Shown in pieces: positions 31 to 34,662 of a stretch of DNA of 36,601 nt. The notes beneath the pieces are model-generated. The model worked only from the letters and a program-made list of their open reading frames with translations. It was not told the origin of the DNA and searched no databases. The stretch spans positions 1-36,601 of IMG/VR virus record IMGVR_UViG_3300045739_000036; one strand, written 5' to 3'. Each line of letters begins with the position of its first letter. The first letter of the stretch is position 1. Source of the stretch: a virus. A program made the translations under genes and the position numbers.

Positions 31-686
31 CACGCGTCCTCGACCTGTTCTGCGGGGCGGGGCTCGCCGCAGACGGGTGGGCACGCGCCGGGTACGAGGT
101 CGTCGGCGTCGATCACGCCGAACAGCCTGACTACCCGTACGAGTTCCACCGCGACGACGCGTTCAACTGGCTGCACTCGTGGCGGGCCGACCACTTCGAT
201 GTGATCCACGCCGCCCCACCGTGTCAGGACCACAGCGTCCTGCGGGGGATGCGTGACGCGCAGGGCCACGGCAGCCGCAACAGCGCCAACGACCTCCTCC
301 ACGTCCTGTCCGTGCTGCGGGTCCGCTGGAACCACGTCCCGTGGGTGGTGGAGAACGTGCCCGGGGCGCCCATGCCGAAGGGGTCCGTGCGGATGTGCGG
401 GTCGATGTTCGGCCTTGAGGTGCGCCGACACCGCCTGTTCGCCTCCAACCGGGAGATCGCACCCATGAAGTGCGCGCACACCGGCAGGGCGTGGGGCGTG
501 TACGGGCGGCCGGGCGACAACCTGCCCGGCGGGGGGCGTACCGCGATGAACGTCGAGCACGGCCGGGAACTGATGGGTGTGGATCGGGAAGTGCCGTGGC
601 ACAGCCTCACGCAGGGCGTGCCACCGGCCTACACCCAGTACGTTGGCACCGAGATCAGGAGGAACAGTGAGCATCATGGACAGTGA
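27..686 (+). CDS. C5 cytosine DNA methyltransferase, phage type
   Basis: A 219-residue protein that should transfer a methyl group from S-adenosylmethionine to C5 of cytosine. Motif I is near the N-terminus (DLFCGAGLAADGW, residues 5-17). The catalytic PPCQ loop (motif IV) is near residue 64, ENV (motif VI) near residue 110, and RRHRLF (motif VIII-like) near residue 132. The C-terminal GVPPAYTQYVG matches the end of phage Dcm-like enzymes. It is much shorter than host Dcm/HhaI enzymes (330-470 aa) and has little room for a target-recognition domain, which is usual for small phage versions. The GTG start overlaps the previous stop. The 3' end overlaps the next gene by 20 bp, so it is probably cotranscribed with head genes. 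Likely role: methylating phage DNA against host restriction; the target site is not predictable. Confidence 0.88.
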   Translation: MTRVLDLFCGAGLAADGWARAGYEVVGVDHAEQPDYPYEFHRDDAFNWLHSWRADHFDVIHAAPPCQDHSVLRGMRDAQGHGSRNSANDLLHVLSVLRVRWNHVPWVVENVPGAPMPKGSVRMCGSMFGLEVRRHRLFASNREIAPMKCAHTGRAWGVYGRPGDNLPGGGRTAMNVEHGRELMGVDREVPWHSLTQGVPPAYTQYVGTEIRRNSEHHGQ

Positions 687-15607: not shown

Positions 15608-17086
15608 ATGACCTACCAGCATCCCGGCGCGATGCCGGTTCCCTATCAGGACTGCCAGCAACCTGCGTTCTGCGCCGGTCCTCCGGGACCGATCGGGCCG
15701 GAAGGCGCTGCTGGTCCGGAGGGTCCGACTGGCCCGGCGGGCACTGCCGGGCCCACAGGGCCCACAGGGCCGTTCGGAGGGCCGACAGGCCCCACGGGTC
15801 CGGCTTCCGACATTCCGGGGCCCACAGGCCCCACAGGGGCGCAGGGACCGCAGGGCGTGAACGGCGTTCAGGGCCCTCCGGGCCCGTTGGGGCCGACAGG
15901 GCCGAGGGGTCTGGTCGGTGCGACCGGTCCGCAGGGCGTGCAGGGCGTGCAGGGCGTTCCGGGTTCGGACGGGGCGCCCGGGTCGATCGGCCCGACGGGG
16001 CCTGCTGGTTCTGACGGAGCCGATGGGGCGCAGGGCCCCACCGGCCCGACCGGGCCGACAGGCGCGACCGGACCGGCTGGGGCAGACTCCACGGTGCAGG
16101 GCCCGACCGGCCCCACCGGGGCCACCGGCGCTGACGGCACCTCGGTCACCATCAAGGGGTCGGTGCCCACGGAGGGCGACCTGCCCGGAGCCGGGAACAC
16201 CGAGGGCGACGGCTACATCGTGGAGGCCACCGGCCATCTGTGGGTGTGGAACGGTTCGGCGTGGGCCGATGCGGGCCAGATCAAGGGCCCGACCGGTGCG
16301 ACGGGGCCCTCCGGGGCGGACGGGGCCACCGGCCCGACGGGACCTGCTGGCTCCGATGGCGCGGCGGGCGCCGCCGGTCCGACGGGTCCGACCGGTGCGA
16401 CTGGGGCGCAGGGCCCGCAGGGAGACACCGGCGCGCAGGGTGTGCAGGGCCCGCAGGGCGCTCAGGGTGTGCAGGGTGTGCCCGGGCCGGAGGGGCCGAC
16501 AGAGGTCAGTGGCGACGCGGACAACATCGCGGTCCTCGGCACGGACAGCCTGATCTACGTCCCTGCGTCGGTGGTGGATGGGGCCGACGAGGTCATCATT
16601 GACGACGCGCTGCCGGTGGGTGGCACGTGGGAACTGTGGGTCGATCCGACCGCGTCGTCGGGGCCGTCCACGTTCGCGCACGCGTCGCTGGTCGGTCTGG
16701 ATGAGGACGATCACCCGCAGTACCTCACGCAGGAGCGTGGTGACGCCCGGTACCTGCCGCTGTCCGGGGGCACGCTGACCGGGCCGTTGACGCTGGCTGG
16801 TGCGCCGTCGCAGGCGGGCCACGCCGCCCGGAAGGCTGATGTGGACGCGGTCGCCGCGCGCAGCATCGTCGCGGGCAACGGCCTGACCGGGGGTGGCACG
16901 CTGGAGTCGAGCCGCACGCTGAATGTGGGTGCGGGCGACGGGATCACGGTGGCCGCGTCGCTGGTCGCTCTGGACACGGCGTTCACTGATGCGCGCTACG
17001 TGCCGCAGGATCAGTTGATCGTGTCGGACAGTCCCGCTTCCGGCACTCCTGCCGGGGGCAGCGGCACTCTCTGGGTCGAATACTAG
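15608..17086 (+). CDS. Collagen-like tail fibre protein 1
   Basis: 492 residues, ATG 15608 after AGGAGGT. A short head (1-21, Pro/Gln-rich, two Cys) leads into Gly-X-Y repeats (about 23-175), mainly [12 protein letters not shown] compact non-collagen module follows (about 176-226, [10 protein letters not shown] ... [15 protein letters not shown]), then a second Gly-X-Y block to about 298. The C-terminus has [15 protein letters not shown] (about 304-318) and the tail-fibre motif [18 protein letters not shown] near residue 358, then [16 protein letters not shown] and a beta-rich tail. Predicted to trimerise as a collagen triple helix and act as an adsorption fibre. The modules recur in two other fibre genes here. 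Confidence 0.85.
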
Positions 17087-17098
17087 GGAGGGGCTGCG

Positions 17099-18835
17099 AT
17101 GCCTGCCTCGGTTTGGAACGGTTCCACATGGGCGCCTGTGAAGGCCATGCCCGTGTGGAACGGTTCCACGTGGGTGAACGGCAAGAAGGCGAAGGCGTGG
17201 AACGGGTCGTCGTGGGTCTTGGCGTGGGTGCCTCCGGTGACGACGGCGACGCTGTCGGTGTCGAAGTCCGGTGTGGAGGTTGGGGAGGCGTACAGCATCT
17301 ACCTCGATGTTCCCGGTGGGTTCCCCGAGGGCGCGCTTGTGACGTTCCGCCTGCCTGCGTGGCAGGGCTATGTGTCCCCGTCGGAGGGCGCGACGCGGGC
17401 TGAGATCAATGGGCTGAGCCACGCCGAAGCAGGCGACTGGACGTGGTACGCGGACGTGTCCACGGCTGGCGGTGATACGACGTTCGGCCCTCTGGTCCAG
17501 ACGGCGTCTCCGGCGGCCCCGCAGCACTACCACGAGGTTGTGCCGTCGGGGTCGAGCCGGGCGGCGATCCAAGCGGCGATGGACCGGGCGTACAACTTCT
17601 GGGCCGCGAACCAGTCGGGCACGCACGTGGACTTCGATGACGAGAGCACGATGGCGTGCGTCGAGTTGGTGTCGGGCGGGGTGTACACGCTGGATGGGCG
17701 GCTGTACACGCGGCGCGGCGTGCGCCTGTTCGGCGGCGGGTCCGGCGCGTCGCGGCCTCTGGTGTACTCGGTCGCTGCCGATTCGCACCTGCTGGTGGCT
17801 GACCAGAACGGAGGCGGCGGCTACAACGCGCCGCACTTCGACTGGCTGTTGGAGAACATCCGGTTCGACTGCCAGTCGTGGGCGGGTGGGCTGTCGATCG
17901 GGCATACGTCGCGGTTCCGGGTCAAGGGCTGCGACTTCGCCAACATGGGCGGCAAGAAGCACTACATCGAGATCAACTCGTCCGGCGGTCCGCGTGGCGC
18001 TGACGGCGTGTACAACGTGGAGGTTCTGGACTGCTACTTCACGATGCCGAACGCGAGTGCGAACCCGGAGAAGCCTCGCCGGAACATTGACGAGTGCATC
18101 CAGTTGGACTACGCGTGGCCGGGCGCCGCGTACGGCCTCCAGCCGGATGGGACGGTCGCGAACAACGTGCGGATCGCGGGCTGCACCTTCCATCAGGTGC
18201 CCCGTGCGATCGGCGCCCACAAGTACGAGATCGAGCAGGGCGTGACCCCGGCGAGCATCCCGTGGAACGTGCTGATCGAGGACAACGTGTTCACCCGGAA
18301 CGATCCCCGGACGCCCGCGCAGGGCGGCTACGGCGACGGTGCCGGTGGGTCGTCCGCCGAGGGCACCGTCCGTTCATACGTGTGGTCGAACGTCCGCGTC
18401 CTCAACAACCAGTTCACCGACTGCTACGCCCCGTTCCGCATCTACACACCGTCGGATGCGTACACCGGGCACGGCAGCCCGACGTACATCGTGGTGGACG
18501 GCAACACGTTCACGGACTGCGACTACGGCAGGTACGCCATCTACGGCGACTCCAACGCGATGAAGACCCATCAGGTGCTCATCCAGAACAACGTCGTGGA
18601 TGGGCAGTGGAGCGGTTCGTCGGATGTGTACATGGCGGGCTGCGATCACACGGATGGCCTGTTGCCCGCATCGTCGTTCGGCTGTGTGATCCGGTGGAAC
18701 ACGTTCAGGCCGGACAACTACTCGGTGGCCGGGGAGGCGGCGTACAACAAGTTCCGGGCGGGGAACTCATCGAACCTGACTGGTGTGTACATCTACCAGA
18801 ACTGGATCAGTGACGGCTCCGAGGACAACTCGTGA
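17099..18835 (+). CDS. Tail spike with right-handed beta-helix (possible depolymerase)
   Basis: 578 residues, ATG 17099 after GGGAGGGG. Residues 4-41 hold three WNGS(S/T)W repeats, likely a virion-attachment or binding module. Residues about 50-140 look like an Ig-like beta-sandwich (ATLSVSKSGVEVGEAYSIYL). From about 150 to 570 there is a parallel beta-helix pattern: repeated short strands rich in Asn and Gly such as RFRVKGCDFANMGG, VEVLDCYFTMPN, VRIAGCTFHQV, VLIEDNVFTRND, VRVLNNQFTDC, YIVVDGNTFTDC, VLIQNNVVDG. That is typical of pectate-lyase-like spikes that bind or cut surface polysaccharides. Acidic residues are abundant, but I cannot pick out a catalytic pair, so enzyme activity is a guess; binding only is possible. 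Confidence 0.8.
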   Translation: MPASVWNGSTWAPVKAMPVWNGSTWVNGKKAKAWNGSSWVLAWVPPVTTATLSVSKSGVEVGEAYSIYLDVPGGFPEGALVTFRLPAWQGYVSPSEGATRAEINGLSHAEAGDWTWYADVSTAGGDTTFGPLVQTASPAAPQHYHEVVPSGSSRAAIQAAMDRAYNFWAANQSGTHVDFDDESTMACVELVSGGVYTLDGRLYTRRGVRLFGGGSGASRPLVYSVAADSHLLVADQNGGGGYNAPHFDWLLENIRFDCQSWAGGLSIGHTSRFRVKGCDFANMGGKKHYIEINSSGGPRGADGVYNVEVLDCYFTMPNASANPEKPRRNIDECIQLDYAWPGAAYGLQPDGTVANNVRIAGCTFHQVPRAIGAHKYEIEQGVTPASIPWNVLIEDNVFTRNDPRTPAQGGYGDGAGGSSAEGTVRSYVWSNVRVLNNQFTDCYAPFRIYTPSDAYTGHGSPTYIVVDGNTFTDCDYGRYAIYGDSNAMKTHQVLIQNNVVDGQWSGSSDVYMAGCDHTDGLLPASSFGCVIRWNTFRPDNYSVAGEAAYNKFRAGNSSNLTGVYIYQNWISDGSEDNS

Positions 18836-18841
18836 GACAGG

Positions 18842-21679
18842 ATGGGTGTCATGGCGATCCCTGAGTTGGTCACCGTTGTCGGCCGGTACCTGACTTCGGA
18901 CGGTGACCCGGAGGTTGGGAGTGTCCGGTTCACCCCGGTGATCGTGGCCGTGAACTGGGTGTCGCCCGATCCGGTCGTGGTGACTCGTGACCCGGTCGAG
19001 GTGACGTTGGACGCGTCGGGCGCGTTCACGGTGGACCTGTTCGCGTCGGATGATCCGAACTGGGGCACGGACGGCCCGGTCTGCTACAAGGTGCGTGAGC
19101 GTCTCGGTGGGCATGATCGGACGTACACGATCGTGGTGCCGTCGCCGGGCCCGGTGGACATTGCCACGTTGCAGCCGTACGCCTGTGATCCGGGTGCGGT
19201 GGTGCCGGTGCCGGGTCCGACTGGCCCGACTGGGGCGCCGGGGGCGCCGGGGGCGCAGGGCCCGACGGGTCCGACTGGGCCTCTGGGGTTGCAGGGTGCG
19301 ACGGGCCCGACCGGTGCGGACGGCGTTGATGGGGCGACTGGTCCCACTGGATCGGTGGGGCCGACGGGGGCTACTGGCCCGACGGGGGCGGACAGTGTTG
19401 TGCCGGGCCCGACCGGGCCGACGGGCCCGACTGGCCCTCCCGGCACGGGCATGGGGGATGGGGCGACGGGTCCGACCGGTCCTACGGGTCCGACTGGTGC
19501 TGTTGGACCAACAGGTCCGACCGGTGCTGACGGCGCTGATGGAGTGGCGGGCCCCACCGGCCCTACCGGTGCGGGCGGCTCTGATGGGATCGCGGGTCCG
19601 ACCGGCCCGCAGGGCCCGGCTGGTGCGGACGGTTCGATCGGTCCTGCCGGGCCCACGGGCGCGACTGGCCCCACGGGCGCGGACAGCACAGAGCCGGGCC
19701 CGACCGGTCCAACGGGCCCGAAGGGCGCTGACGGCACGTCGGTGAAGATCGTTGGGTCGGTGCCCACTGCGGGTGATCTGGACCCGGGATACACCGGAGA
19801 CATCGGTGATGGGTACACCGCTCAGGACACCGGTCATCTCTGGACGTGGGACGGGGTGCAGTGGAACGACGCCGGTCCGATCGTGGGTCCGACGGGTTCC
19901 ACGGGTCCGACTGGTGCGACGGGTCCGACCGGCGCGGACTCGACTGCGCCCGGCCCCACCGGTCCTACCGGCCCGCAGGGTTCGCAGGGCATTCAGGGCA
20001 TCCAAGGTGCGTTGGGCCCCACGGGCCCGACCGGTGCTCAGGGCGCGGACAGCACGGTGCCGGGTCCGACCGGTCCCACTGGTGCTCAGGGTGCTGACGG
20101 TGCGGTGGGACCGACCGGGCCTAGCGGTGCGGATGGGGCGGCGGGTCCGACTGGCCCTGCTGGCTCCGACGGGGCGGATGGGGCTGCTGGCCCAACAGGA
20201 CCGACCGGAGCAGACGGTGCGGACGGCGCGGTGGGCGCGACAGGTCCGACCGGTGCTACCGGTCCCACGGGTCCCGCCGGGTCGGATGGCGCAAACGGAG
20301 AGGTGGGTCCTACGGGGCCGACTGGCGCGTCCGGCCCGGCGGGAGCCACTGGCCCGAGCGGGGCTGATGGTGCGGCAGGACCGACGGGTCCGACTGGTGC
20401 TACCGGTCCCGCTGGAGCAGACGGCGCGACGTGGTTGTCCGGTAGTGGACCTCCCTCTGAGGGGCTGGGGGAGCCGGGGGACTTCTACCTCGATGAGAGC
20501 ACGTCGCAGTACTACGGGCCGAAGTCCGATGTCCTGCCATCGGTGAACCTCCTGACCGACGATGAGGCGTCCTACGAAACCTCCTCCGCTGGGGTGTCCG
20601 GCTCCAACGTCACCGTGGAGCGGTCAACTGAGTGGGCCGCCCACGGCACCTACTCGATCAAGGCGCACACGGCCACTGCTGCGCCGTTCGATGTCTACCA
20701 CCACAACGTCGCCGACCTGCTGGCCGCCAACGAGGGCGCGGCGGTCACTGTCTCCGTGGAGGTCTACACCGACACCGCTGGTGTCACCGGGCGCGTGTGT
20801 CTGCTGTCCAACGTCGGGAACCTGTGGGACTCCCCTGTCGCCATCCCTGCTGGTGTGCCGACGACGTTGCAGTTCACGCTGGACCCGGTGCCAGCGGGGA
20901 TCACGTCAGCGCTGCTGACCACACAGGTGTGGAACGCTGACCCGATCTACTTGGACAAGGTGGGGCTGTGGCTGGGCACGGGCGGGGCGTGGTCGCTGCC
21001 CAGTAGCGCGCCGAGTCTGTGGGGCGACCCTGTCTCGCTGGAGGGCGCTGACGGGGCTGCTGGCCCGACGGGCCCGACCGGTGCCGACGGGGCGGATGGG
21101 GCTGCTGGCCCTACCGGACCGGAAGGTCCCACTGCGGTCAGCACCGATGCGAACAACATCGCGGTGCTGGGTTCGGACAGCCTGATCTACGTCCCGTCCT
21201 CCGGCGGTGGTGGGACGGACGACCACTCGGCGCTGCTGAACCTCGACGCGGACGACCACCTCCAGTACCCGCTGATGGAGATGCAGCCCGACACTCCGTC
21301 GCCGCTGCCCGCAGCGGATCGCCCGGCACTGTGGTGGGACACTGACGACGATCCGGTGGGCTCCGGACCCGCAGGTCCCACTGGCCCGACCGGCCCCGCT
21401 GGCCCGACTGGTTTGATTGGTGCTCAGGGCGACCCCGGTCCCACAGGCCCGACCGGGCCGACGGGTGCTGACTCCACGGTGCCGGGCCCGACTGGGCCGC
21501 AGGGCGATCAGGGGATTCAGGGTCCGACCGGCCCCACGGGCCCGACCGGCCCCACGGGCTCGACCGGCGCTCAGGGCGACCTCGGTCCCACAGGTCCCAC
21601 CGGCCCGGCTCAGGTGACGGTGTCCGCCACCGAGCCGCCCAGTCCTGCGCTAGGTGAGATTTGGGCTCCGGTGCCGTGA
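18842..21679 (+). CDS. Large multi-domain collagen-like minor tail protein
   Basis: 945 residues; ATG 18842, with ATG 18851 (MAIPELV) an equally plausible start. Residues 1 to about 120 form a beta-sandwich found at the start of many actinophage minor tail proteins ([20 protein letters not shown]). Then come four Gly-X-Y blocks (about 122-296, 350-535, 734-766, 843-922) separated by folded modules. These are the [10 protein letters not shown] ... [15 protein letters not shown] module (about 300-350), a jelly-roll or carbohydrate-binding-like domain (about 566-725, starting [16 protein letters not shown]), and [15 protein letters not shown] plus [10 protein letters not shown] (about 774-810). 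The protein should be a long, jointed trimeric fibre. Gly-Pro-Thr triplets dominate. The stop overlaps the next ATG. Confidence 0.85.
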
Positions 21680-21906
21680 TGGCCTCCAACGCTGTTGGAT
21701 GCACGCAGGGGCGGGAGTGCTGCTGGGTGGAGGGCAGGCCGTGCCCCCACCTCGACGGTGACGAGTGCAGTCTGCGGGTGGAACTTGGGTCGTGGGAGGC
21801 GGTGCATTCCGACCCCCGCTACTTGGAGAACCCGAAGCCGGTGTGGGATCGGCTCGGCATTGCGGACTGCGGGGACTTCTCCTGCAAGAACTGCCGGGTG
21901 CTCTGA
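21679..21906 (+). CDS. Small cysteine-rich protein in the fibre cluster
   Basis: 75 residues, ATG 21679 overlapping the previous TGA. Eight cysteines in two groups (C-x5-CC-x6-C-x7-C near residues 8-30, and C-x4-C-x2-C near 64-72), suggesting one or two metal-binding or disulfide knots. No signal peptide. Its stop overlaps the next ATG, so it is cotranslated with fibre genes. Function unknown; it could cap or be attached to a fibre. Confidence 0.65.
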   Translation: MASNAVGCTQGRECCWVEGRPCPHLDGDECSLRVELGSWEAVHSDPRYLENPKPVWDRLGIADCGDFSCKNCRVL

Positions 21907-23495
21907 TGGCGTCGGTCACCCTGCGCGGCACGCAACCGCAGTATCAGGACGCGGACTGGCAGACCTTCGACGGGCTGGCGTGGGAGGACGACGCCACGGT
22001 CGGTGGGGTCACGTCGTACGACAAGCGTCGCGCGGATGTGGTGCTCATCGCGTTCGGCCTGCGTGATCCGGTGACGGAGGAGTCGCGGCTGCCGATCGAC
22101 TTCCCGCACACCGACTTCTACAACCAGATCACGGCGATCACCTACGAGATGCGGTTCGCGCACACCGGGTACGGCGATGACACATTCACCATGACGTTCT
22201 CCCGGATGGGCGCATGGACCGGTGACGGCTCCGATGTCACCCCGCTGTGGGGCGAGGTCGCCGACGCCTCGTCCGGTGACCTCGGCTCCGGTGGCGGTGG
22301 GCCGACCACCTCCGTGTGGGCGCCTGCCGTGCAGGGCCCTGCCAGCGATGTCAGCGAGGCGGTGTTCAACCAGTGGTGGTCGGACCTGCTGGCCGGGCCG
22401 GGCACCTACTTCGGGATGCAGTTCACCGGCGAGCACGCCGCGAACATGGCGTCCGATGGCCCGGTGAACGTGTCCTTCTACTCGGTGGCGGTGACGATCG
22501 AGTACGTGCCGGTGGCGGTCGCACCTCCGACGGTGACCCTGACGGCGGACCCGTCCACGGTGCTCACCGGGGATCAGGTGGTGCTGACCGCTGACGTGAC
22601 GGGGCTGCCCGCGCCGACGCTGGTGTGGGCGCTCGATGGTGCCACGGACCTCGGCGGCGATCCGGTGAAGACGGTGCAGTGGGATGCGGCGGGCACGTTC
22701 AACCCGCAGGTCACTGCGACGAATTCGTCGGGGTCGGATGTGGATTCCGTCCCGGTCACGGTCGATCTGAGGCTCGCGCTGGTGTGGAACGGCACGGTGT
22801 GGGAGGGGGCGAAGTCGTGGGATGGCACCGCGTGGGTGACACCGAAGGTGTGGAATGGCAGCCGTTGGGTGCCGTTCGCTGACCATGGCGGCGGGCAGCC
22901 ACCCACGCCCGGAGGGTCCCCATCGTTCGTGTCGGTGGAGTCCGACCTGTTGGACTCATCGACCGGGTTCACCGTGGCGCGCCCGGCTGCCGCGCAGGAC
23001 GGGGACCTGCTGCTCTGTCAGGTCGTGTCGCACGCCTCGTCGGGAACGATCACTCCCGACCCCGGATGGGCAACGGTGCAGGCCGCGACGCCCAACAATG
23101 ACTACACGTTCGCGGTGTTCTCTCGGGTGGTGCAGGCGGGGGACACGTCGTGGGAGTTCAGCAACTCGACGGCGAACGTGATCTGGTCGGTCGCCACGGT
23201 GCGGGACGGGACGACCACGACCTCCGGGTTGGACCTACTGAGCGGGCTCACGGTCACTCCGGAGGTCACGGTTGGCGCGGACGCGCTGCTGCTGCACTTC
23301 ACCGGCACGGACGTGTCGAATGTGATCTCGTGGTCCGGCGATGGGACCAAGCAACTCGATGAGGTGGTGGGGGCGGACTGGCTTTCCCACGCCCTGTTCA
23401 CCAGTGAGGTTGGGGCGGGGACCCACCAGATGTCGGCCACCCACTCCTACGGGTCGTCGCAGGATATCCACGGATTGCTGGTGGCAGTGACATGA
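21906..23495 (+). CDS. Minor tail / fibre protein with Ig-like and WNG-repeat domains
   Basis: 529 residues, ATG 21906 in a one-base overlap. Residues 1 to about 200 are a beta-rich domain with [20 protein letters not shown]. Residues about 205-290 look like an Ig/PKD-type domain ([20 protein letters not shown] ... [20 protein letters not shown]). Residues about 292-325 carry WNGTVW, WDGTAW and WNGSRW repeats like those in the spike at 17099. The C-terminal 190 residues form a lectin-like beta-sandwich ([20 protein letters not shown] and [11 protein letters not shown]). No collagen repeats. Likely a receptor-binding accessory fibre; the domain assignments are pattern-based. Confidence 0.7.
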
Positions 23496-23520
23496 TGCCT
23501 GCGAATGGAGGGGTGACCTG

Positions 23521-24000
23521 ATGGGACTGCTCAAGGTCTGGAACGGCACTGACTACGTGCCGGTCGTCGGATCGCAGGGTCCGACGGGCCCGACCGGCCC
23601 GCAGGGCGATCAGGGCGATCAGGGCCCCACCGGTCCGACAGGGGCGACAGGAGCGACCGGTGACATCGGACCCACTGGAAGTGCGGGGCCTACTGGGGCC
23701 ACTGGCGATGCCGGGCCCACGGGCCCGACCGGCCCGACCGGCCCGACGGGTCCGCAGGGTGCGGACTCGACGGTGGTGGGCCCTACCGGCCCCGCTGGTG
23801 CAGACGGCGCGCAGGGTGATGCGGGTCCTACGGGTCCTACGGGTCCTACTGGCGCGGAGGGCCCTAGCGCGGTCAGCGCCGATGCGGACAACGTCGCTGT
23901 CCTCGGAACCGACACGCTGATCTACGTCCCACCGCAGGTCGAGGTCGGAACGGTTCAGCCGACGAATGAGGATGTGCTGCTCTGGGTGGACCCAACGTGA
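23521..24000 (+). CDS. Collagen-like fibre protein 3 (short)
   Basis: 159 residues, ATG 23521 after GGAGGGG. Begins [17 protein letters not shown], a single WNG unit, then Gly-X-Y repeats (about 18-114) with [15 protein letters not shown]. Ends with [15 protein letters not shown] (about 122-136) and a short tail LLWVDPT, the same terminal module found in the fibres at 15608 and 18842. It lacks a C-terminal receptor-binding head, so it may be a stalk or a truncated fibre. Stop overlaps the next start (GTGA). Confidence 0.78.
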
Positions 24001-24122
24001 TCGCCGACAGGATCGCGCGGCTGTTCGGACACGCGCTGGCGCTGTGCGCGGCGCCGTTGGCGTGGGCCATGCACCGCTGGGACCGCAGCCTGTACCACGG
24101 CAACTGGCGTGAGGAAGGGTGA
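23997..24122 (+). CDS. 41-residue small protein between fibre and glycosyltransferase
   Basis: GTG 23997 overlaps the fibre stop (GTGA) and the frame runs to TGA 24120-24122. It reads [20 protein letters not shown] followed by [16 protein letters not shown], a short hydrophobic or amphipathic helix with flanking arginines and tryptophans. Codons are G/C-rich at third positions, and the arrangement matches the overlapping style of this operon. It could be a small membrane-binding peptide; function unknown. Confidence 0.55.
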
Positions 24123-24132
24123 AGGGGAGCAG

Positions 24133-25065
24133 GTGAAGGTCACAGTGAGCGCGATCATGCTCAACGAGCCGTTGGGGTTCGTTGAGCGGTGGGCGCGCAG
24201 CGCGGAAGGCGCTGATGAGCGGGTGCTGGTGGACACCGGGTCCGACAACGGGGCGGTGCCGTTCGCCCGCAGTCTCGGAATCACGGTGCACGAGATCAAG
24301 GTGGACCCGTGGCGGTTCGACGTGGCCCGCAACGCGGCCATGGCTCTGCTGCCTGCTGACACCGATGTGATGGTCACCCTCGATGTGGATGAGGTTCTGC
24401 GTCCGGGTTGGCGGGCGGCGCTGGAGAAGGCTGGCCCGGCGGCGAAGTACCAGTACCGCTACATCTGGTCGCACAAGATGGACGGCAGCCCCGATGTGGA
24501 GTTCTACGGAGATCGGATCGTGTCCCGGCACGGGTGGATGTGGCGCCATCCGGTGCATGAGTCGCTTCGATGGGTGGGAGAAGGCGAGCCGCACACAGTC
24601 CTGACGGACGTGGTGATCGAGCACCTTGCCGACAACTCCAAGCCCCGGTCCCAGTACCTCCCTCTGCTGCGGAAGGCGGTGGAGGAGGCGCCGAACGACG
24701 ATCGGATGGCGCACTACTACGCGCGGGAGTTGTTCTTCCGTGGTCAGTGGGCGGAGGCCCGCAAGGAGTTCGTGCGTCATCTGGCGATGCCGGAGGCGAC
24801 GTGGCCCCCGGAGCGGGCCCAGTCCTACCGCTACCTCGCCAAGATGGACGACCGTCCGGAGCGGTGGCTGCTGCACGCGGCCAGTGAGGACCCGAATCGC
24901 CGTGAGGTGTGGGTGGACCTCATGGAGTTCTGGCTGGATCGGGATTCGGTGATGGCGGCGCTGTACGCGCGGCGTGCACTTCGGATCAGGAACCGTCCGG
25001 GGGACTACATGACTGAGGCGAAGGCGTGGAATGACGAGTGGCTGCACACTGTCATGGGAGGGTGA
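24133..25065 (+). CDS. Glycosyltransferase, family 2-like
   Basis: 310 residues from GTG 24133 (VKVTVSAIMLNEPLG); GTG 24109 would overlap the previous gene. N-terminal GT-A fold: TVSAIMLNEP, then ADERVLVDTGSDNG (about 25-38), and VMVTLDVDEVLRPGW (about 79-93), where DVDE supplies the DxD metal/nucleotide-sugar site. WRFDVARNAAM (about 60-70) is typical of family 2 enzymes. The C-terminal half is helical, TPR-like (YYARELFFRGQWAEARKEF). It should transfer a sugar from a nucleotide donor. Set among Gly-Pro-Thr fibre genes, it probably glycosylates virion fibre proteins, by analogy with phage glycosyltransferases reported to modify capsid and tail proteins. Modification of host wall or phage DNA is less likely. 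Confidence 0.85.
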   Translation: MKVTVSAIMLNEPLGFVERWARSAEGADERVLVDTGSDNGAVPFARSLGITVHEIKVDPWRFDVARNAAMALLPADTDVMVTLDVDEVLRPGWRAALEKAGPAAKYQYRYIWSHKMDGSPDVEFYGDRIVSRHGWMWRHPVHESLRWVGEGEPHTVLTDVVIEHLADNSKPRSQYLPLLRKAVEEAPNDDRMAHYYARELFFRGQWAEARKEFVRHLAMPEATWPPERAQSYRYLAKMDDRPERWLLHAASEDPNRREVWVDLMEFWLDRDSVMAALYARRALRIRNRPGDYMTEAKAWNDEWLHTVMGG

Positions 25066-25068
25066 GGC

Positions 25069-25656
25069 ATGGCTGTCGTCTACTACCGGAACGCGGCACA
25101 GGAATGGGTGCCGCTGAGTCAGACCGGTCCGACCGGCCCGAAGGGTGCGACTGGCGATCAGGGTGTGCAGGGCCCGACGGGCCCGACGGGACCGACCGGC
25201 GTTGACGGTGACACAGGTCCGGCGGGGCCGACCGGCCCGACCGGCGCGGCTGGCACGACCGGGGCGCAGGGCCCGACCGGCCCGCAGGGCAACACTGGTG
25301 CGAAGGGCCCGACCGGCCCGCAGGGCGCCACCGGCGACAAGGGCGCGACCGGCGCGAAGGGCGCGACCGGCGCCACGGGGGCCTCTGGTGACGCGCACGA
25401 TCGGTGGCGGATGGTGAAGGGCCGTACGGCTGTCGCTGGCGGCAGCGGCAGCCCGACGACGGCTGTGGCGGGGTACGGTCTGACGTACAACGCGACTCCG
25501 AATGTGGTCTGCAACGGCTACTCGACGGTGATGGGTTCCACGGTGAAGGGAGCGTCGGTGGACACGTTGAACACCACGTCGATCACCCTGTGCGTCACAC
25601 GATCGAACACCACCACCACGTACGTGGACTGGATAGCATGGGGTACGGTTTACTAA
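25069..25656 (+). CDS. Collagen-like tail fibre with lectin-like head (YYR family 1)
   Basis: 195 residues, ATG 25069 four bases after the glycosyltransferase stop. N-terminal anchor [16 protein letters not shown] is shared with the next two fibre genes. Gly-X-Y repeats follow (about 22-107, [16 protein letters not shown]; later [11 protein letters not shown]). The C-terminal head (about 110-195) is a small beta-sandwich with [13 protein letters not shown] and ending [12 protein letters not shown], similar in spacing to H-type-lectin-like fibre knobs (inference). An antisense HNH cassette is inserted immediately after its stop, and a second copy of its last four codons plus stop lies at the other side of the cassette. 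Confidence 0.82.
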
Positions 25657-25678
25657 CAGTCTACATATCCGACGGGAG

Positions 25679-26254
25679 TCAGATGTGGGCCCACTTCTCT
25701 CGGCGCTGAATCTTGCCGATGTGCGAGGCGCTCAGCCCGTACTCGGCTGCGATCACGCTGCGGCGTCGCGTGTCGGCGCGGATCGCCAGCACGTCCGCCG
25801 CTGTCAGCACGGCCTTCCCGCTGGCTTCCCCTCGCTGCTGACGACCCTTGCGCACCATGTCGGCCATGTTCTCGGCGTGGGTGCCGGTGAGCAGGTGGGC
25901 CGGGTTGCAGCACGCAGGCGTGTCGCACGTATGGAGCAAGGCCTTCTCGCTGGGCAGGGGCCCGTTCCATGTCGCGTAGGCGGCCCTGTGCGCCGAGATC
26001 GTCTTGCCGTCGATGCAGACCTTCCCGTACCCGTGCGAGTTCGTGGCCCGGGTCCACAGCCAGCATCCGTCGGCAGGCCGGTCAGGAAGGCCCGCGAGAA
26101 GGCGCTGCTCCAAAGTCGTGGCCTTCGTTGCCGTCGTTCTGATCGGCTCGTCTGGCATTGTGGAGCCGTGGATACGCACGCGCAGGTAGTGGCCGTTGCA
26201 CAGGCCCTTGGCGTAGTGGCGGTTGGTGCATCCTTCGACGGTGCAGGTTCTCAT
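25679..26254 (-). CDS. HNH homing-type endonuclease 2, antisense between fibre genes
   Basis: 191 residues. N-terminus has a zinc-finger-like MRTCTVEGCTNRHYAKGLCN with C-x4-C and later C-x2-H. The HNH core is GCWLWTRATNSHGYGKV, then AHRAAYATWNGP and HTCDTPACCNPAHL (about 110-123), containing the catalytic His and the NPxH pair. The C-terminus (about 148-190, LTAADVLAIRAD ... YGLSASHIGKIQRR) is a NUMOD-like helix-turn-helix DNA-binding tail. Starts at ATG 26254 with no ribosome site and a TATTAT box 6 nt upstream. The gene runs against the late operon and fits exactly between two collagen-fibre genes. It is not closely similar to the first HNH gene, so it was probably acquired separately. Confidence 0.9.
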   Translation of the reverse strand: MRTCTVEGCTNRHYAKGLCNGHYLRVRIHGSTMPDEPIRTTATKATTLEQRLLAGLPDRPADGCWLWTRATNSHGYGKVCIDGKTISAHRAAYATWNGPLPSEKALLHTCDTPACCNPAHLLTGTHAENMADMVRKGRQQRGEASGKAVLTAADVLAIRADTRRRSVIAAEYGLSASHIGKIQRREKWAHI

Positions 26255-26260
26255 GTACCC

Positions 26261-26266
26261 ATAATA
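26261..26266 (-). promoter_or_regulatory. Candidate -10 box for the second HNH gene (leaderless)
   Basis: Read on the minus strand, TATTAT (5/6 to TATAAT) ends 6 nt before ATG 26254, the same spacing as for the first HNH gene. No recognisable -35 lies 16-18 nt upstream (TCTCAG at 17 nt) and no Shine-Dalgarno sequence is present. Confidence 0.45.
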
Positions 26267-26288
26267 CGTGAGGGGACGGTGTACTGAG

Positions 26289-26882
26289 ATGCCAACGCTC
26301 TACTACCGGGACCCCAACGATCAGCAGTGGAAGCCCATCAACGAGCAGGGCCCGACCGGCCCGGTGGGTGACACGGGCCCGACGGGGCCGACAGGTCCGA
26401 CCGGCCCGCAGGGGTTGACTGGAGATGCGGGAACGCAGGGCCCGTCAGGGCCGACTGGGCCGCAGGGGGCGGCGGGTTCGACCGGGGCCGTCGGCCCGAC
26501 CGGCCCGCAGGGTGCCACGGGCGCCACGGGTGACAAGGGCCCGAAGGGTGCCACGGGCGCTACGGGCGATCGGGGTGCGACGGGCAACACCGGCGCGCAG
26601 GGTGTGTCGGGGCAGCCGCGTGGCTGGTCCTGCCGGTGGGCGTACACGGTGGTGACGCCGGTGGCGAACACTCCGACCTCGCATCGGGTGTACTTCTCCA
26701 ACGGTTCGGGTTCGGGTGGGTTCACCACCGTGCCGCAGGTGATGAGTGGGGCGAACTCGACTGTGCCTGCCACGGTGAGGTCCACAGGGGTGAGCGCGAC
26801 GACGACGACGTACGTCGATCTGGAAATCTACCGGACCAACACGACGAGCACCGGCATCGACTGGATTGCGTTGGGATGGTGA
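26289..26882 (+). CDS. Collagen-like tail fibre with lectin-like head (YYR family 2)
   Basis: 197 residues from ATG 26289; ATG 26268 upstream overlaps the flank of the HNH cassette and is unlikely. N-terminus [17 protein letters not shown] is the same anchor as in the two neighbouring fibres. Gly-X-Y blocks run from about 20 to 110 ([33 protein letters not shown]). The C-terminal head (about 115-197) has [19 protein letters not shown] and ends [17 protein letters not shown], the same fold pattern as the gene at 25069. Probably a tandem paralogue; differences in the heads suggest diversified receptor binding. Spacing to the next gene is 4 nt. Confidence 0.82.
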
Positions 26883-26886
26883 CGGC

Positions 26887-27699
26887 ATGACGTTCTACTA
26901 CCGCGATCCTGACAGCGGGCTCTGGACACAGATGCCGCTCGTCGGGGACAGCGGCGATACGGGCGCGAAGGGTGCGACTGGCCCGGACGGTCCGACGGGG
27001 TGGGATGGGGCGCAGGGCGCTCAGGGCGCTCAGGGAGTGCAGGGTGTGCAGGGCCCGACGGGGCCGCAGGGCAGCGCGGGTGCCACGGGGGCGACTGGCC
27101 CGCAGGGTCCGGTCGGAAACACGGGTTCGACCGGCGCGCAGGGCGACAAGGGCAACACCGGCGCGCAGGGCCCGACCGGCTACACCGGCGCCACCGGCCC
27201 GAAGGGCACCAACCACTTCGCCCAGTTCCGTGTGGGGAACACGCGGTTTGCTGGCGGCACTAACGTGCAGGGCCCGTGGACGGCGTTCTCGGCGGCCTTC
27301 GCCGCCACGCCTGCGGTGTCGGTGTCCAAGCGCACGTCGGTGCCTCATGTGTGGATGTCGGTCACGCACACGGGCCGGAACACTGCCGGGTTCTACCCGG
27401 TCGTGTACCGAACGAACACCACCGACTGCATCGTGGACTTCCTTGCGGTGTCGAACCGGGCCACGTTGCTGATGATGGCTGAGGCGGCTGCCCGTTACGA
27501 GGATGAGGCCCGGCATGTCCTGTACATCCAGCAGGACGGTCGGGCGGATCATCTGCTGGTTGAGGCCCATGACTATGTGATCGGCCCGGAGGACACTCCG
27601 TGGCTGCGGACGTTCGACACTGCGGGGGCTCTGGTTCGCGAGTTCGCGCCGGAGGAGTGGGACACGGTGCAACGCGAGTATGTGGTGGGAGGTCCGTGA
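26887..27699 (+). CDS. Collagen-like tail fibre with lectin-like head and C-terminal extension (YYR family 3)
   Basis: 270 residues, ATG 26887. N-terminus [18 protein letters not shown], then Gly-X-Y repeats (about 25-115, richer in Gln/Ala: [13 protein letters not shown]). Head at about 116-195 ([19 protein letters not shown] ... [17 protein letters not shown]). An extra C-terminal domain (about 196-270) contains [20 protein letters not shown] and [21 protein letters not shown] related short domain is encoded alone by the next gene, so this fibre may be a head fused to that unit. The stop overlaps the next ATG. Confidence 0.8.
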
Positions 27700-28488: not shown

Positions 28489-28740
28489 ATGAGCGGAGGA
28501 ATCGTGGGCGACTCGCACTTCTGGTGGTCGCGGCTGAGCGGGCTGGCGGTGGTGGCGGCGCTGCTGGTCACTGCCGCGTTGAAGGAGGGCTCTCCGCTGT
28601 CGGCGCCGCTTGTCGCAGCCGGGCTGGTGGTGCTCGGCGCGTGGCTGGCGGTGGAGGTCACGAGGATCACCGACGCGCACTACGCCAAGGAGCACAGGCG
28701 GCTGACCGAGGACGACAATTCCGGATCGGAGGATTCATGA
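28489..28740 (+). CDS. Two-span membrane protein, candidate holin
   Basis: 83 residues, ATG 28489. Two hydrophobic spans (LSGLAVVAALLVTAAL, about 16-31; LSAPLVAAGLVVLGAWLAV, about 37-55) with a short loop, then a charged C-terminal tail (RRLTEDDNSGSEDS). This small two-span layout with a hydrophilic C-terminus is typical of class II holins. Its stop overlaps the endolysin start (ATGA), strong contextual support. Which of the three membrane proteins forms the lesion is not determined. Confidence 0.68.
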   Translation: MSGGIVGDSHFWWSRLSGLAVVAALLVTAALKEGSPLSAPLVAAGLVVLGAWLAVEVTRITDAHYAKEHRRLTEDDNSGSEDS

Positions 28741-30035
28741 CATCACCGGTGCCCACGCACAAGATCACGACCCCGTATGGCCGTCGCGGCAAGCACTGGT
28801 CCTGCCAGAAGAACAGTGCTGGTGAGGGCATCCACACCGGGGCTGACTACGCCGCGCCTGCGGGGACGAAGGTTGTCGCGGCCAGACCGGGGGTCGTGAG
28901 GTACGTCAACTTCGGCTCCGCATTCGGCTCCAAGCAGGTGGCAATCACAGGTCCTGACGGAACCGTGGACTTCTATGCTCATATGCGTAAGCGTGTCGCT
29001 GCGGGGACGCAGGTCAAGACCGGCGACAAGGTCGGCGAGGTGGGCAGCGAGGGGAACTCCACGGGAAACCACCTGCACTTTGAGAGGCATAAGAACGCGT
29101 CGGGATGGAGTTGTAGCAACGTGGTGAACCCTCAGCCTTCGATCGACTACGGCGGCCACACGATTATCGGTCGCGGCAAGGTGTACCTGTCCAAGTTGGT
29201 GTACGGGCAGCCCTGCGATGACGATCCCAGTGACTCGATCAAGCGTCTCCAGCAGGCGTTGAACGCGGACGGTCTGGGTGCGAATCTGAGCGGCACCGGC
29301 ATCTACGGCGGCGGGACGGACAAGTGGGTGCGGGAGTGCCAGAAGCGGCACGGCTACGGCAACGACCCGGAGGGGCAGAGCAATGTGGGCCCCATGCAGG
29401 CCAACCACCTGTTCACGCCGACGGCTGACACCGTGGTGGATGACCGGGACGATCCGGTGGAGCCTTGCGATGACACGCCGACCGATCCGACCGACCCGGA
29501 GGAGCCCGAAGTGCCACCCACGATTCCTGACGGAGCCTCACTTGTCTATTTCTACTCCGGAAAACCCAATTCCGATCAGTCCATCGGGACTGGCTACACG
29601 GAGGTCACGAAGTCGCGTTGGACGGCACCGGACTCCGACGGGTTCCTGTTCTCGATGCTGTACCTGAACCTCGCCCACTCGCTGACCTCGTCCAAGCCCA
29701 TCGGCGGCATCCGGACGCGCATGGTGCGGATGAACCCGACGGATGAGACGGCCTATCAGGACGAGGCGGTGTCTCGGGATGGGGTGTCGAAGTCGGCGTT
29801 CCTGACCACGCGCATCTGGTTCGGGTCGTGGAAGGCGCAGCGTCCGCTGCGGTGGGATGTGCGCCGTTCGGACTCGATGGGGACCACGAAGGCGGGCACC
29901 CGGTACACGAAGGTTCTGTGGTTCGCGAAGAAGGCGCCGATGACTGCTCTGGCGCATCCGATCAAGACGGCGAAGTTCGTGTCTCAGGCGTTGTCGGCCT
30001 CGGAGGGTGAGGATGAGGTTCTGATCGTGCTGTGA
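28737..30035 (+). CDS. Endolysin with M23 (LytM-type) peptidase domain
   Basis: 432 residues, ATG 28737 after GGAGG. Zinc metallopeptidase of the M23 family: HTGAD supplies His33 and Asp37, YAH has His81, and the HLH pair is His112/His114. It should cut peptide cross-links in the host peptidoglycan. Residues about 150-225 (KVYLSKLVYGQPCDDDPSDS ... RLQQALNADGLG) look like a cell-wall/peptidoglycan-binding domain of the kind found in actinophage endolysins. An acidic Pro/Thr linker (about 235-265) leads to a C-terminal beta-rich domain of unknown function (about 268-432). No signal peptide, so export needs a holin; three small membrane proteins sit immediately upstream. Confidence 0.85.
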   Translation: MTSPVPTHKITTPYGRRGKHWSCQKNSAGEGIHTGADYAAPAGTKVVAARPGVVRYVNFGSAFGSKQVAITGPDGTVDFYAHMRKRVAAGTQVKTGDKVGEVGSEGNSTGNHLHFERHKNASGWSCSNVVNPQPSIDYGGHTIIGRGKVYLSKLVYGQPCDDDPSDSIKRLQQALNADGLGANLSGTGIYGGGTDKWVRECQKRHGYGNDPEGQSNVGPMQANHLFTPTADTVVDDRDDPVEPCDDTPTDPTDPEEPEVPPTIPDGASLVYFYSGKPNSDQSIGTGYTEVTKSRWTAPDSDGFLFSMLYLNLAHSLTSSKPIGGIRTRMVRMNPTDETAYQDEAVSRDGVSKSAFLTTRIWFGSWKAQRPLRWDVRRSDSMGTTKAGTRYTKVLWFAKKAPMTALAHPIKTAKFVSQALSASEGEDEVLIVL

Positions 30036-30110: not shown

Positions 30111-30539
30111 ATGCCACGTCGTTCGACCAAGACGGTCACCACGCCCGAGGAGCACATCGACGTTGACGGCGACGGTGACGTGGACGCTGTCGTGTCGCAC
30201 ACGACCACCATCACCATCGAGGACGAGCCTGACGCCGGGGGTGTGACCCCGATGAGCGTGGGCGTCCGTGCTGCCGGTGATCCGGGCGAGTGTGGGGAGA
30301 ATGCGTGCTGGAGCCGCACGGTCCTCACGTTCACCGATCAGACCGCTGGGCTTCTGGCGACGTTGACCCCGGACTGGCAGGGCAACATCGTGTGGGACTT
30401 CGGAGACGGCAGTGATCCGGTCATGGGTCGGGGCCCGGTGCAGCACACCTACGCTGGCGCGGGCACCTACACGGTCACGGCCACCCCGGTCGCGTCGTCC
30501 TGCTTCAAGGCTGGTTCGGCGAGCGTCACGGTCGCCTGA
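30111..30539 (+). CDS. PKD-domain structural protein
   Basis: 142 residues, ATG 30111 after TAGGAGGAAGCC. N-terminal basic segment MPRRSTKTVTTPEEH, then DVDGDGDVDAVV (an Asp-rich, possibly Ca-binding loop, about 17-28). A PKD domain follows at about 60-142, with NIVWDFGDGSDPVMGRGPV and HTYAGAGTYTVTATP, the family's WDFGDG and HTYxxxGTYTVT signatures. PKD domains mediate binding on virion surfaces. The 75-bp gap upstream (30036-30110) shows no clear promoter beyond the ribosome site. Confidence 0.75.
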   Translation: MPRRSTKTVTTPEEHIDVDGDGDVDAVVSHTTTITIEDEPDAGGVTPMSVGVRAAGDPGECGENACWSRTVLTFTDQTAGLLATLTPDWQGNIVWDFGDGSDPVMGRGPVQHTYAGAGTYTVTATPVASSCFKAGSASVTVA

Positions 30540-32072: not shown

Positions 32073-32564
32073 ATGAGTGGCTGCAACTGCATCAGCGTGG
32101 GCTGCGAGTGCGTCGTTCTGGGTGGTGCGGGCATTTCTGTCAGCGGGCTTGGTACCTCGGGGAGCCCGTTCGTCATCACCAACACGCGAGACACGCTCGC
32201 GGTGGATGACACGGCGACGTTGGACCTGAACAAGGACAACAACGTCGTGACCGGTCACGCGATGATCGGGCCTCTGCTGTCGGCGTCGGACACGCCGACG
32301 GTGGACATGACGTTGGCTGGTCAGGGGACGGAGGCTGAGCCGTTCGTCCTGTCCGCCGAAGTGGCGGGCATCGACATCACCGGCGGCAACACGGGTGACG
32401 TGCTGACCAAGCAGTTGGATGGCACGTACAAGCCGGGCCCGCCGGTTCAGGCCGATGTGGGGCAGGTTGTGGTTGGGGATGGGCTGCGTGGTGACGGTTC
32501 TGGGCCTGATCCGCTGCGCGTGTTCCCGGGCACGTACGCGGAGTGGGAGGGGTTGACTCTGTAG
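32073..32564 (+). CDS. Small fibre-like protein
   Basis: 163 residues, ATG 32073 after AGGGAGG. The N-terminus has a Cys group (MSGCNCISVGCECVVLGG). The middle resembles beta-solenoid phage fibres (GISVSGLGTSGSPFVITNTR) with the GTEAEPFVLSAEV repeat-like unit. Near the C-terminus is GNTGDVLTKQLDGTYKPGPP, a motif common in trimeric fibre tips. It is the last gene before the secreted SpaA-type protein and lies at the distal end of the fibre cluster. Confidence 0.68.
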   Translation: MSGCNCISVGCECVVLGGAGISVSGLGTSGSPFVITNTRDTLAVDDTATLDLNKDNNVVTGHAMIGPLLSASDTPTVDMTLAGQGTEAEPFVLSAEVAGIDITGGNTGDVLTKQLDGTYKPGPPVQADVGQVVVGDGLRGDGSGPDPLRVFPGTYAEWEGLTL

Positions 32565-32636
32565 TCCCCTCTGGAACGATGGTCAGGGACGGGGTGATGC
32601 TGCCTCGTCTCTGCCCCCATTACTAGGAGGAGACAC

Positions 32637-34154
32637 ATGAGGAAGACCCTCATCGCTGCCAGCGTGGCAGCACTTGCGCTTGCCGGGCTGTCCCCGGCGA
32701 TCGCTGACGCGGGCCCGCCGTCGCTGGCGGGCAGCGATTTCGAGATCGAGGCCGACGCCAACATCATCGTGGACACGCCCGGCAACATCGACTGGGTGTC
32801 AGACGGTGTGACCGTCAAGGCCGACAAGCCTTCCGGCAAGGCCGACGACTCGTTCGGTCAGGGCACCAAGGAGAACACTGCTGTGCCCGTCGTGGTCAGC
32901 GGCTCCATCCCGCCGAACAAGTCCGACCTCAAGGAGTTCGGCTCCTATCAGGAGGGGACCACGGCTGACGGGTTCTTCCACCTGTTCTGGTCGCGTGTGC
33001 AGGACCCGTCCGGCACGACGAACATGGACTTTGAGTTGAACCAGTCCGACGTGCTGTCCTCCAATGGTGTGACGAACGTGCGGACGGCTGGCGATCTGCT
33101 CATCACCTACGACTTGGACAAGGGCGGCAAGGTCGCCACGATGTCGAAGCGTGAGTGGGACGGCTCCAAGTGGGGGCCTGCTGAGGGCTTCGCTGACGGC
33201 GAGGCTGTGGGCACCATCAACACCAGCACGATTCCCGCCGACAGTGGCCTTGGGCCGTACAGTCCTCGAACGTTCGGTGAGGCCAGTGTGGCCCTGTCGT
33301 CGCTGTTCCCGTCCAACGGTGAGTGCAAGACGTTCGGCACCGCCTACGTCAAGAGCCGGTCGTCGGACTCGTTCACCGCCGCGTTGAAGGACTTCATCGC
33401 GCCGAAGGCGATCAACCTCACCAACTGCGGCAAGGTGAACATCGTCAAGAAGGACGACGCCGGTGCGGTTCTGGCCGGTGCCGAGTTCACGCTGCTGGGC
33501 ACCGATCCGCTGCTCAAGTGCACCACCGACGCGGCGGGCCTGTGCTCGATCACCGACGTGCCGTTCGGCACCTACACGGTGAAGGAGACGGTCGTGCCGA
33601 CCGGGTACGACCCGGCGCCTGACCAGACCGCCACGGTGTCCGGGTCGGTGCAGGTCGTCACGCTGACGTTCATCGACGTGCGCCAGCGTGGTGCCATCGA
33701 GGTGACCAAGACCTACGGCGACGGCGTGCCGCTGGCCGATGTCGAGTTCACCGTGAACGGCGTGACCAAGAAGACCGGGACCGATGGCAAGGTCTGCTTC
33801 GACGGCCTGCTGTTCGGTGACTACAAGGTCACGGAGACGGTGCCTGCCGGGTTCAAGCCTGCGGGTGCCAACCCGAAGACGGTCACGGTGGACACCAAGG
33901 CATCATGCTCGGACGCCACCTACGTTGGCGAGACTGTCTCGTTCGTCAACATCCCGCTGAGCCAGATCGCGGTCGGGTTCCGCCCGGAGGTGGCTGGTGC
34001 GACCAGCGCCACGATCGAGTGCAAGAAGGGCTCGGACGTGATCTCCACGGTGGCGCTGCCCACGCTCCGCACGGACTCTGACGCCTACGGCACCGCCGTC
34101 GGCGCGGGCTCGCTGGAGCCGGGCACGTACGTCTGCACGGTGGTCATCCAGTAG
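32637..34154 (+). CDS. Secreted protein with two SpaA/Cna-B-type (prealbumin-like) domains
   Basis: 505 residues, ATG 32637 after AGGAGG. Sec signal peptide MRKTLIAASVAALALAGLSP with cleavage near AIADA. Residues about 26-262 resemble an N-terminal domain of secreted actinobacterial surface proteins (SGSIPPNKSDLKEFG; RVQDPSGTTNMDFELNQ; SRSSDSFTAALKDF), from family memory. Domain 1 (about 264-350) has Lys271/272, Glu317 and Asp347; domain 2 (about 352-440) has Lys358, Glu400 and Asn438, the Lys-Glu-Asn pattern for a self-made isopeptide bond. The C-terminal 65 residues have no LPxTG motif or membrane anchor, so it is probably released or held on the wall otherwise. Last late gene, directly before the terminator. 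Role unknown; host-derived moron or wall-binding factor are both possible. Confidence 0.82.
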   Translation: MRKTLIAASVAALALAGLSPAIADAGPPSLAGSDFEIEADANIIVDTPGNIDWVSDGVTVKADKPSGKADDSFGQGTKENTAVPVVVSGSIPPNKSDLKEFGSYQEGTTADGFFHLFWSRVQDPSGTTNMDFELNQSDVLSSNGVTNVRTAGDLLITYDLDKGGKVATMSKREWDGSKWGPAEGFADGEAVGTINTSTIPADSGLGPYSPRTFGEASVALSSLFPSNGECKTFGTAYVKSRSSDSFTAALKDFIAPKAINLTNCGKVNIVKKDDAGAVLAGAEFTLLGTDPLLKCTTDAAGLCSITDVPFGTYTVKETVVPTGYDPAPDQTATVSGSVQVVTLTFIDVRQRGAIEVTKTYGDGVPLADVEFTVNGVTKKTGTDGKVCFDGLLFGDYKVTETVPAGFKPAGANPKTVTVDTKASCSDATYVGETVSFVNIPLSQIAVGFRPEVAGATSATIECKKGSDVISTVALPTLRTDSDAYGTAVGAGSLEPGTYVCTVVIQ

Positions 34155-34165
34155 TAGGCACGACG

Positions 34166-34199
34166 AAGGCCCCCACCCCTGTGGACAGGTGGGGGCCTT
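34166..34199. terminator. Bidirectional transcription terminator between convergent operons
   Basis: AAGGCCCCCACC (34166-34177) pairs with GGTGGGGGCCTT (34188-34199): a perfect 12-bp stem with a 10-nt loop, whose inner bases can extend the pairing (TGT/ACA). It starts 11 nt after the SpaA-type gene's stop and is followed by TT-C-T-GTGT on the plus strand. The two A and two T bases at the stem foot allow use from both directions. It separates plus-strand late genes from the minus-strand operon. Confidence 0.85.
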
Positions 34200-34230: not shown

Positions 34231-34662
34231 TCAGAACGGCGGCGGCGGCAGTTCTGTCCCTGCCGCACGGGATGAGGCGGCGGGCGCCTTGTTGGACCTC
34301 TCCTGCCGGTGGATGGTGGCGCTGGCGAAGGTCAGGGCGGGCCCGACCTCGCGGACCTGACACTCGACGCTGGTGCCGGTGCCGCCTTCCCTCGTCTCGT
34401 ACTGCCGGACCTTGAGGGTGCCGACGACGATGACGCGGTGGCCCTTGGTCAGAGTCTCGGCCACGTTCTCGGCGTACTGCCGCCAGACGGTGCAGCGGAG
34501 GAAGGTGGTGTCGGCCTCCTCCCATTCGCTCGTCTGCTTGTTGAACCGGCGCTCGTTGACGGCGACGGTGAAGTTGGTGACGGCGGTGCCGTCGGGGGTG
34601 AACCTCAGTTCCGGGTCGCTCGTCAGGTTGCCGACGAACGTCAGTTCTGGTGCTCCGCTCAT
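34231..34662 (-). CDS. ssb: Single-stranded DNA-binding protein
   Basis: 143 residues, ATG at 34662 with AGGAG upstream on the minus strand. OB-fold core: LTFVGNLTSDPELRFTPDG (about 7-25), AVTNFTVAVNER, FLRCTVWRQYAENVAETLTK and GHRVIVVGTLKVRQYE (about 73-88). A Ser/Ala-rich linker ends in ELPPPPF, the acidic/hydrophobic SSB C-terminal tip (PPF) that recruits host and phage replication proteins. It protects and organises ssDNA during replication or recombination. First gene on the right side of the terminator and last of the minus-strand operon. Confidence 0.94.
   Translation of the reverse strand: MSGAPELTFVGNLTSDPELRFTPDGTAVTNFTVAVNERRFNKQTSEWEEADTTFLRCTVWRQYAENVAETLTKGHRVIVVGTLKVRQYETREGGTGTSVECQVREVGPALTFASATIHRQERSNKAPAASSRAAGTELPPPPF

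Follow-up and report, generated by a model that had tools for sequence, protein, structure and literature searches.

Why should a phage carry, at the end of its late genes, a gene for a large secreted protein of the kind made by actinobacteria? The question is posed by an open reading frame (ORF) at positions 32637-34154 of a 36.6-kb virus record (36,601 nucleotides), the whole of which we refer to as the window. An intact gene, its domains, an export signal, its status as cargo and two separate placements in a phylogenetic tree can be regarded as established, as far as sequence analysis can establish them. As to its role, we tentatively propose a captured secreted protein that would be exported and would mask or sequester receptors outside the cell, an account that we find plausible but rather short of probable.

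Gene and transcription context

On the + strand, the window has a late operon of siphophage type, with portal/head-morphogenesis, major head protein, tape measure and collagen-like fibre genes. The ORF is the final gene of this + strand run, so that gene order agrees with the preliminary description of this DNA, which had placed it last in the late operon. Its immediate surroundings are as follows:

32073-32564, + strand: left flank, the last late gene, common to the collinear relatives (genome comparison)
32625-32630, + strand: ribosome-binding site AGGAGG, 6 bases 5' of the ATG (read directly from the sequence)
32637-34154, + strand: secreted-protein gene, 505 aa, with an ATG start and an intact ORF
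34166-34199, no strand assigned: strong hairpin AAGGCCCCCACC...GGTGGGGGCCTT (sequence and pattern scan)
34231-34662, - strand: right flank, single-strand DNA-binding protein (SSB) gene, convergent, common to the relatives

A pattern scan for sigma-70-like promoters found none for the gene, and we therefore infer that it is transcribed with the late operon by read-through. The hairpin, lying where the late and early units converge, is likely to be a terminator. The GC3 of the gene (0.89) lies inside the range of the phage genes, and thus its composition shows no sign of recent entry. Matches of the window head protein are mostly from actinobacterial phages, the best being from a cyanobacterial phage. 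The window, which falls short of a 62.6-kb relative in length, is probably a fragment.

Absence from collinear relatives

Collinear relatives were found via the major head protein (72% identity). Two contigs, G399 and G402, hold every stretch of the window from the portal-type gene to SSB, and in both of them the two flanking genes are present and the 32637-34154 gene is absent. In G399, about 165 bases separate the end of the 32073-32564 homologue from the SSB gene; the corresponding gap in G402 is about 665 bases and has no match to the secreted-protein gene. Read by eye, G402 (L057) appears to have another ORF at this junction, on the minus strand at about 36780-37252 of its contig, and G399 has none. 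A search of viral contigs with the window peptidase returned no further relatives.

We call the gene cargo because the collinear relatives run from the last late gene towards SSB without it; it would be a moron-like gene, captured from bacteria. An assembly chimera is unlikely, as both flanks match the same collinear relatives. The junction between the last late gene and SSB is possibly a hot spot where genes are gained.

Export signal, stalk and C-terminal domain

The encoded protein is divided as follows:

32637-32711, + strand: Sec signal peptide, residues 1 to about 25, without a lipobox (sequence; crude ORF scan)
32709-33428, + strand: N-domain, about residues 25-265 (about 240 aa), a domain of bacterial secreted proteins with no Pfam family
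33429-33686, + strand: SpaA/Cna-B domain 1, residues 265-350, triad K271/E317/D347 (Pfam, fold)
33687-33956, + strand: SpaA/Cna-B domain 2, residues 351-440, triad K358/E400/N438 (Pfam, alignment)
33957-34151, + strand: C-terminal beta-domain, residues 441-505, Cys pair C462/C500 (comparison, model)

The signal peptide, MRKTLIAASVAALALAGLSPAIADA, has the highest N-terminal core hydrophobicity, by a crude score, among the 36 window ORFs compared. The 505-aa protein has no lipobox, its first Cys being residue 230, which rules out a lipoprotein. Its C-terminus, GSLEPGTYVCTVVIQ (ending GTYVCTVVIQ), has neither an LPXTG motif, which rules out a sortase-anchored pilin, nor a hydrophobic stretch with a charged tail, and the protein has no C-terminal membrane segment or other anchor. 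Against the major pilin model it scores 29.6 bits, below the cut-off of 95. Its eight Cys residues make up four plausible within-domain pairs that are kept in homologues, which fits an exported protein, and they would be expected to form disulphides.

The Pfam SpaA entry (PF17802) matches two stretches of the protein, the best being 265-345 (E 2.3e-24, 85.8 bits, cut-off 23.1). In the AlphaFold model, the SpaA domains match the Cna-B domains of pilins and adhesins (8bdw_A, Z 12.8, 89 residues, 2.1 A). Both isopeptide-type triads lie at positions aligned with homologues, K358/E400/N438 being invariant across four phage proteins, and isopeptide bonds probably lock the Cna-B domains. The 441-505 domain is common to three other viral proteins and to the bacterial proteins L025 and L027.

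The preliminary description had taken the ORF for a host-like secreted protein with a large N-domain of the secreted actinobacterial type, two SpaA/Cna-B domains and no sortase motif, and the signal peptide, the N-domain homologues described below, PF17802 and the C-terminus bear this out well beyond what chance would give. Both of its proposed triads stand; where it left the lysine of the first as K271 or K272, alignment with homologues favours K271. Its list of domains was right for the SpaA/Cna-B part and the N-domain, and missed the C-terminal beta-domain.

Distribution and predicted fold of the N-domain

Outside phages, the N-domain occurs only in secreted-type bacterial proteins among those found. 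Its matches are secreted proteins of Streptomyces, Sinomonas and others, with 41-59% identity over the trimmed domain. Twelve bacterial loci encode it, and the carriers are mostly actinobacterial. Among 296 genomes sampled from the actinobacterial phylum, 20 have it, counting weak matches and the seed genome, and one sample of the seed genus has it in 1 of 101 genomes, namely the seed genome. The bacterial proteins have varied SpaA, Ig-like or other repeats, mostly C-terminal to the N-domain, and no LPXTG-type anchor at the complete ends read. At the four loci examined, the adjoining genes are mainly of housekeeping type (guanylate kinase or acyl-CoA dehydrogenase, for example), and a prophage origin of the bacterial copies is rejected on this account. 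The N-domain represents a new family of secreted domains in actinobacteria.

Neither Pfam nor PHROGs gave a sequence match to the N-domain, a search of 50,697 phage records with it returned nothing even at E 10, and a PDB sequence search returned nothing meaningful. An ordinary tail or capsid protein is rejected, the phage records yielding matches to the SpaA part only (28-32%). The original view that this is not a standard phage function holds, and there are no tail proteins among the N-domain homologues found; close homologues that are ordinary tail proteins, which would have told against that view, did not appear.

When modelled alone (pLDDT 69, pTM 0.73), the N-domain is a predicted beta-sandwich. 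Its best fold matches are 4jpq, a putative carbohydrate-binding protein (Z 9.2), 2ivf_C (Z 8.6) and the CBM9 domain 7nwn (Z 7.8), at 3.9-4.8 A, which we take to be members of one sugar- or haem-binding fold group. These scores are modestly higher than the background of Ig-type folds (about 6.4-7.3), and Foldseek gives a single match below 1e-3, to 2ivf_C. None of 15 N-domain members has a CBM9/DOMON-type Pfam match, and a sequence link to CBM9 is rejected, since hhalign against CBM9_1 sequences gave 0.1% probability. The CBM9/DOMON/ethylbenzene-dehydrogenase-gamma fold group thus supplies the best structural matches but no sequence or profile match. The model weakly suggests that the N-domain is closest to CBM9/DOMON-type sugar- or haem-binding sandwiches; with modest fold scores and no CBM9 profile support, sugar binding would be a lead and not a result.

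A second phage group and the origin of the gene

Contigs L014 and L015 (48 kb) and the fragment L016 encode proteins in which the N-domain is combined with a single Cna-B domain and with the C-domain of the window protein, and both complete copies have a signal peptide. At E 1e-4, these three have nothing in common with the window phage apart from the secreted-protein gene. Terminase and portal genes occur in L014 and L015, and a major head protein gene was seen in L015, which identifies these contigs as real phages. In L015, the secreted-protein gene is the last of the replication-side strand, with an exonuclease two genes upstream, and is convergent with an endolysin-type gene; late expression is therefore not a general property of the phage copies. 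The L014 and L015 contigs show 77% identity across 1.1 kb of the gene region and 66-74% in their remaining matches of more than 400 bases, and dN/dS is about 0.32-0.33 (dN 0.21-0.23, dS 0.63-0.70), which indicates purifying selection. A search for more phage copies with the L015 protein led back to these three contigs alone.

A phylogeny against host proteins, as the preliminary description had suggested, was built from 29 N-domains and gives the phage copies an ancestry among bacterial proteins. It places the window protein beside a Streptomyces/Rubrobacter-MAG group (95/92) and the second-group copies beside a different bacterial protein, G192 (100/99); a single clade of phage copies is rejected (p-AU 0.0003). 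The simplest reading of the two placements and the rejected clade is at least two captures, and the gene was probably taken up from bacteria on at least two separate occasions. The proteins with the nearest N-domains carry C-terminal repeats unlike those of the window protein, whose second Cna-B domain and C-terminal domain instead match the second phage group (43%), a discrepancy that implies domain shuffling as well.

Possible roles of the secreted protein

Entry into at least two unrelated phage groups, together with conservation by selection in one of them, points to a selectable extracellular task in infection and suggests that the protein is useful outside the infected cell. The phage gene would give rise to a Sec-exported, unanchored protein with a new beta-sandwich in front, two probably self-locking Cna-B stalk domains and a disulphide-bearing end domain. 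Export would take place during infection, the isopeptide bonds would stiffen the stalk, and the N-domain may bind the surface or matrix of infected or neighbouring cells, possibly through glycans. Receptors would thereby be covered or sequestered, leading to superinfection exclusion or keeping progeny off debris and dying cells. The roles put forward in the preliminary description (decoy or mask of receptors, superinfection exclusion, aid to attachment to mycelium) would be candidates only, as would late expression and a mycelial host.

Receptor masking or superinfection exclusion is the likeliest single role, even if we would not go so far as to call it the expected one. Surface proteins by which phages block superinfection have been described (PMC3952083), and a surface exclusion protein has been proposed in an actinobacterial phage (PMC11480721), both of which count for masking. 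Against it, the 505-aa protein is unanchored while those proteins are lipid- or membrane-held (the Ltp-type ones by lipid), the N-domain lacks CBM9 profile support, and the five records searched (the window, its relatives and the second phage group), which may be fragments, yielded no integrase or resolvase, so that a lysogeny benefit is not evident. Captured genes are sometimes transient passengers, which also speaks against masking. A stronger form of the proposal, in which unrelated phages repeatedly captured a glycan-binding adhesin family as a diffusible, isopeptide-stiffened shield for soluble superinfection exclusion, seems to us doubtful.

The main rival to masking is adhesion, whereby infected mycelium, lysate or free phage would stick to surfaces or neighbouring cells by means of an adhesin or matrix protein, a service that the bacterial relatives may render to their own cells. 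The bacterial relatives, which join the N-domain to SpaA, Ig-like and other adhesin-type repeats, would suit this role, as would the adhesins and pilins among the stalk's best fold matches and the weak resemblance of the modelled N-domain to sugar-binding domains, but the protein lacks an anchor to either cell or virion, and we judge adhesion to be somewhat unlikely. That the gene is a picked-up host gene of no benefit to the phage is less likely again: it does occur in one member of its phage group, with relatives that do without it, yet it is a long intact ORF with a good ribosome-binding site and phage-like GC3, it was probably captured more than once, and in the second group it is under purifying selection and better conserved than the other long matches.

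A fibre or decoration of the virion that merely resembles a secreted protein is improbable. The gene does come immediately after structural-type genes in which an Fn3/Ig-like part occurs, and Ig-like domains occur on virions, as in T4 Hoc (PMC10385173); the signal peptide and conserved Cys pairs, the patchy presence among collinear relatives, the replication-strand position in the second group and the failure to find a tail or capsid homologue of the N-domain all argue against it. We give slightly less credence still to a secreted auxiliary serving the host cell during infection by binding nutrients, polysaccharide or haem (DOMON-type). Although 2ivf_C and the cytochrome domain of cellobiose dehydrogenase, both of which bind haem, are among the fold matches, the match is weak, no enzyme domain is present, and no such family is matched in sequence.

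Relation to known systems

Masking by an exported, unanchored protein would differ from what is familiar. Phage-encoded exported surface proteins are mostly small, membrane-held and from temperate phages; here, a large unanchored multi-domain protein of surface type, one of its domains undescribed, has made its way into at least two groups of phages that are unrelated to each other. A literature search of limited coverage found no report that combines phage, isopeptide and prealbumin-like domains. The closest counterparts are bacterial SpaA/Cna-B secreted proteins (L011-L013 of Sinomonas, and L025 and L027 from the actinobacterial phylum), which also have a signal peptide, the N-domain, Cna-B-type domains and no anchor seen, L025 and L027 having the C-terminal domain too. 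They differ in lying in bacterial genomes, mostly by housekeeping genes at the loci checked, and are frequently longer and contain other repeats.

Gram-positive pilins and MSCRAMM adhesins (SpaA, BcpA, SdrD, TIE protein) have the same Cna-B stalk fold and isopeptide-type triads, but the phage protein lacks LPXTG or any anchor and its N-domain is unrelated by sequence. Ltp-type superinfection-exclusion lipoproteins (TP-J34) and the proposed C. acnes phage gp41 are likewise phage-encoded with an export signal; in contrast to them, the window protein has beta domains and no lipobox or membrane helix, nor is any similarity to them in sequence evident. Like moron genes, ours is an addition that separates two conserved genes, is missing in relatives and has a terminator-like hairpin behind it; the difference is that no promoter of its own was detected here.

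Other features of the late operon

The 1111-aa ORF at 577-3912 (+) has head morphogenesis, portal and head maturation protease family matches along its length and is possibly a fused head-assembly polyprotein. The tape measure (9865-13041, +) is about 23% identical to those of the relatives, its neighbours being 38-76% identical, and appears to be fast-changing or exchanged. Several separate genes with collagen-like Gly-X-Y repeats occupy 15608-27699 (+). Inside the operon, on the opposite strand, 25679-26254 (-) is an HNH-type endonuclease-like ORF, judged from its sequence; its site has no match in the relatives, similar ORFs occur elsewhere in G402, and it is probably a mobile homing-type insert. 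The gene at 28524-30035 (+) encodes an M23 peptidase with a peptidoglycan-binding domain, and a PKD-domain protein follows at 30111-30539. Since homology of the peptidase to G402 starts at residue 72, its translation probably begins at the ATG of position 28737 and not at the GTG that was listed.
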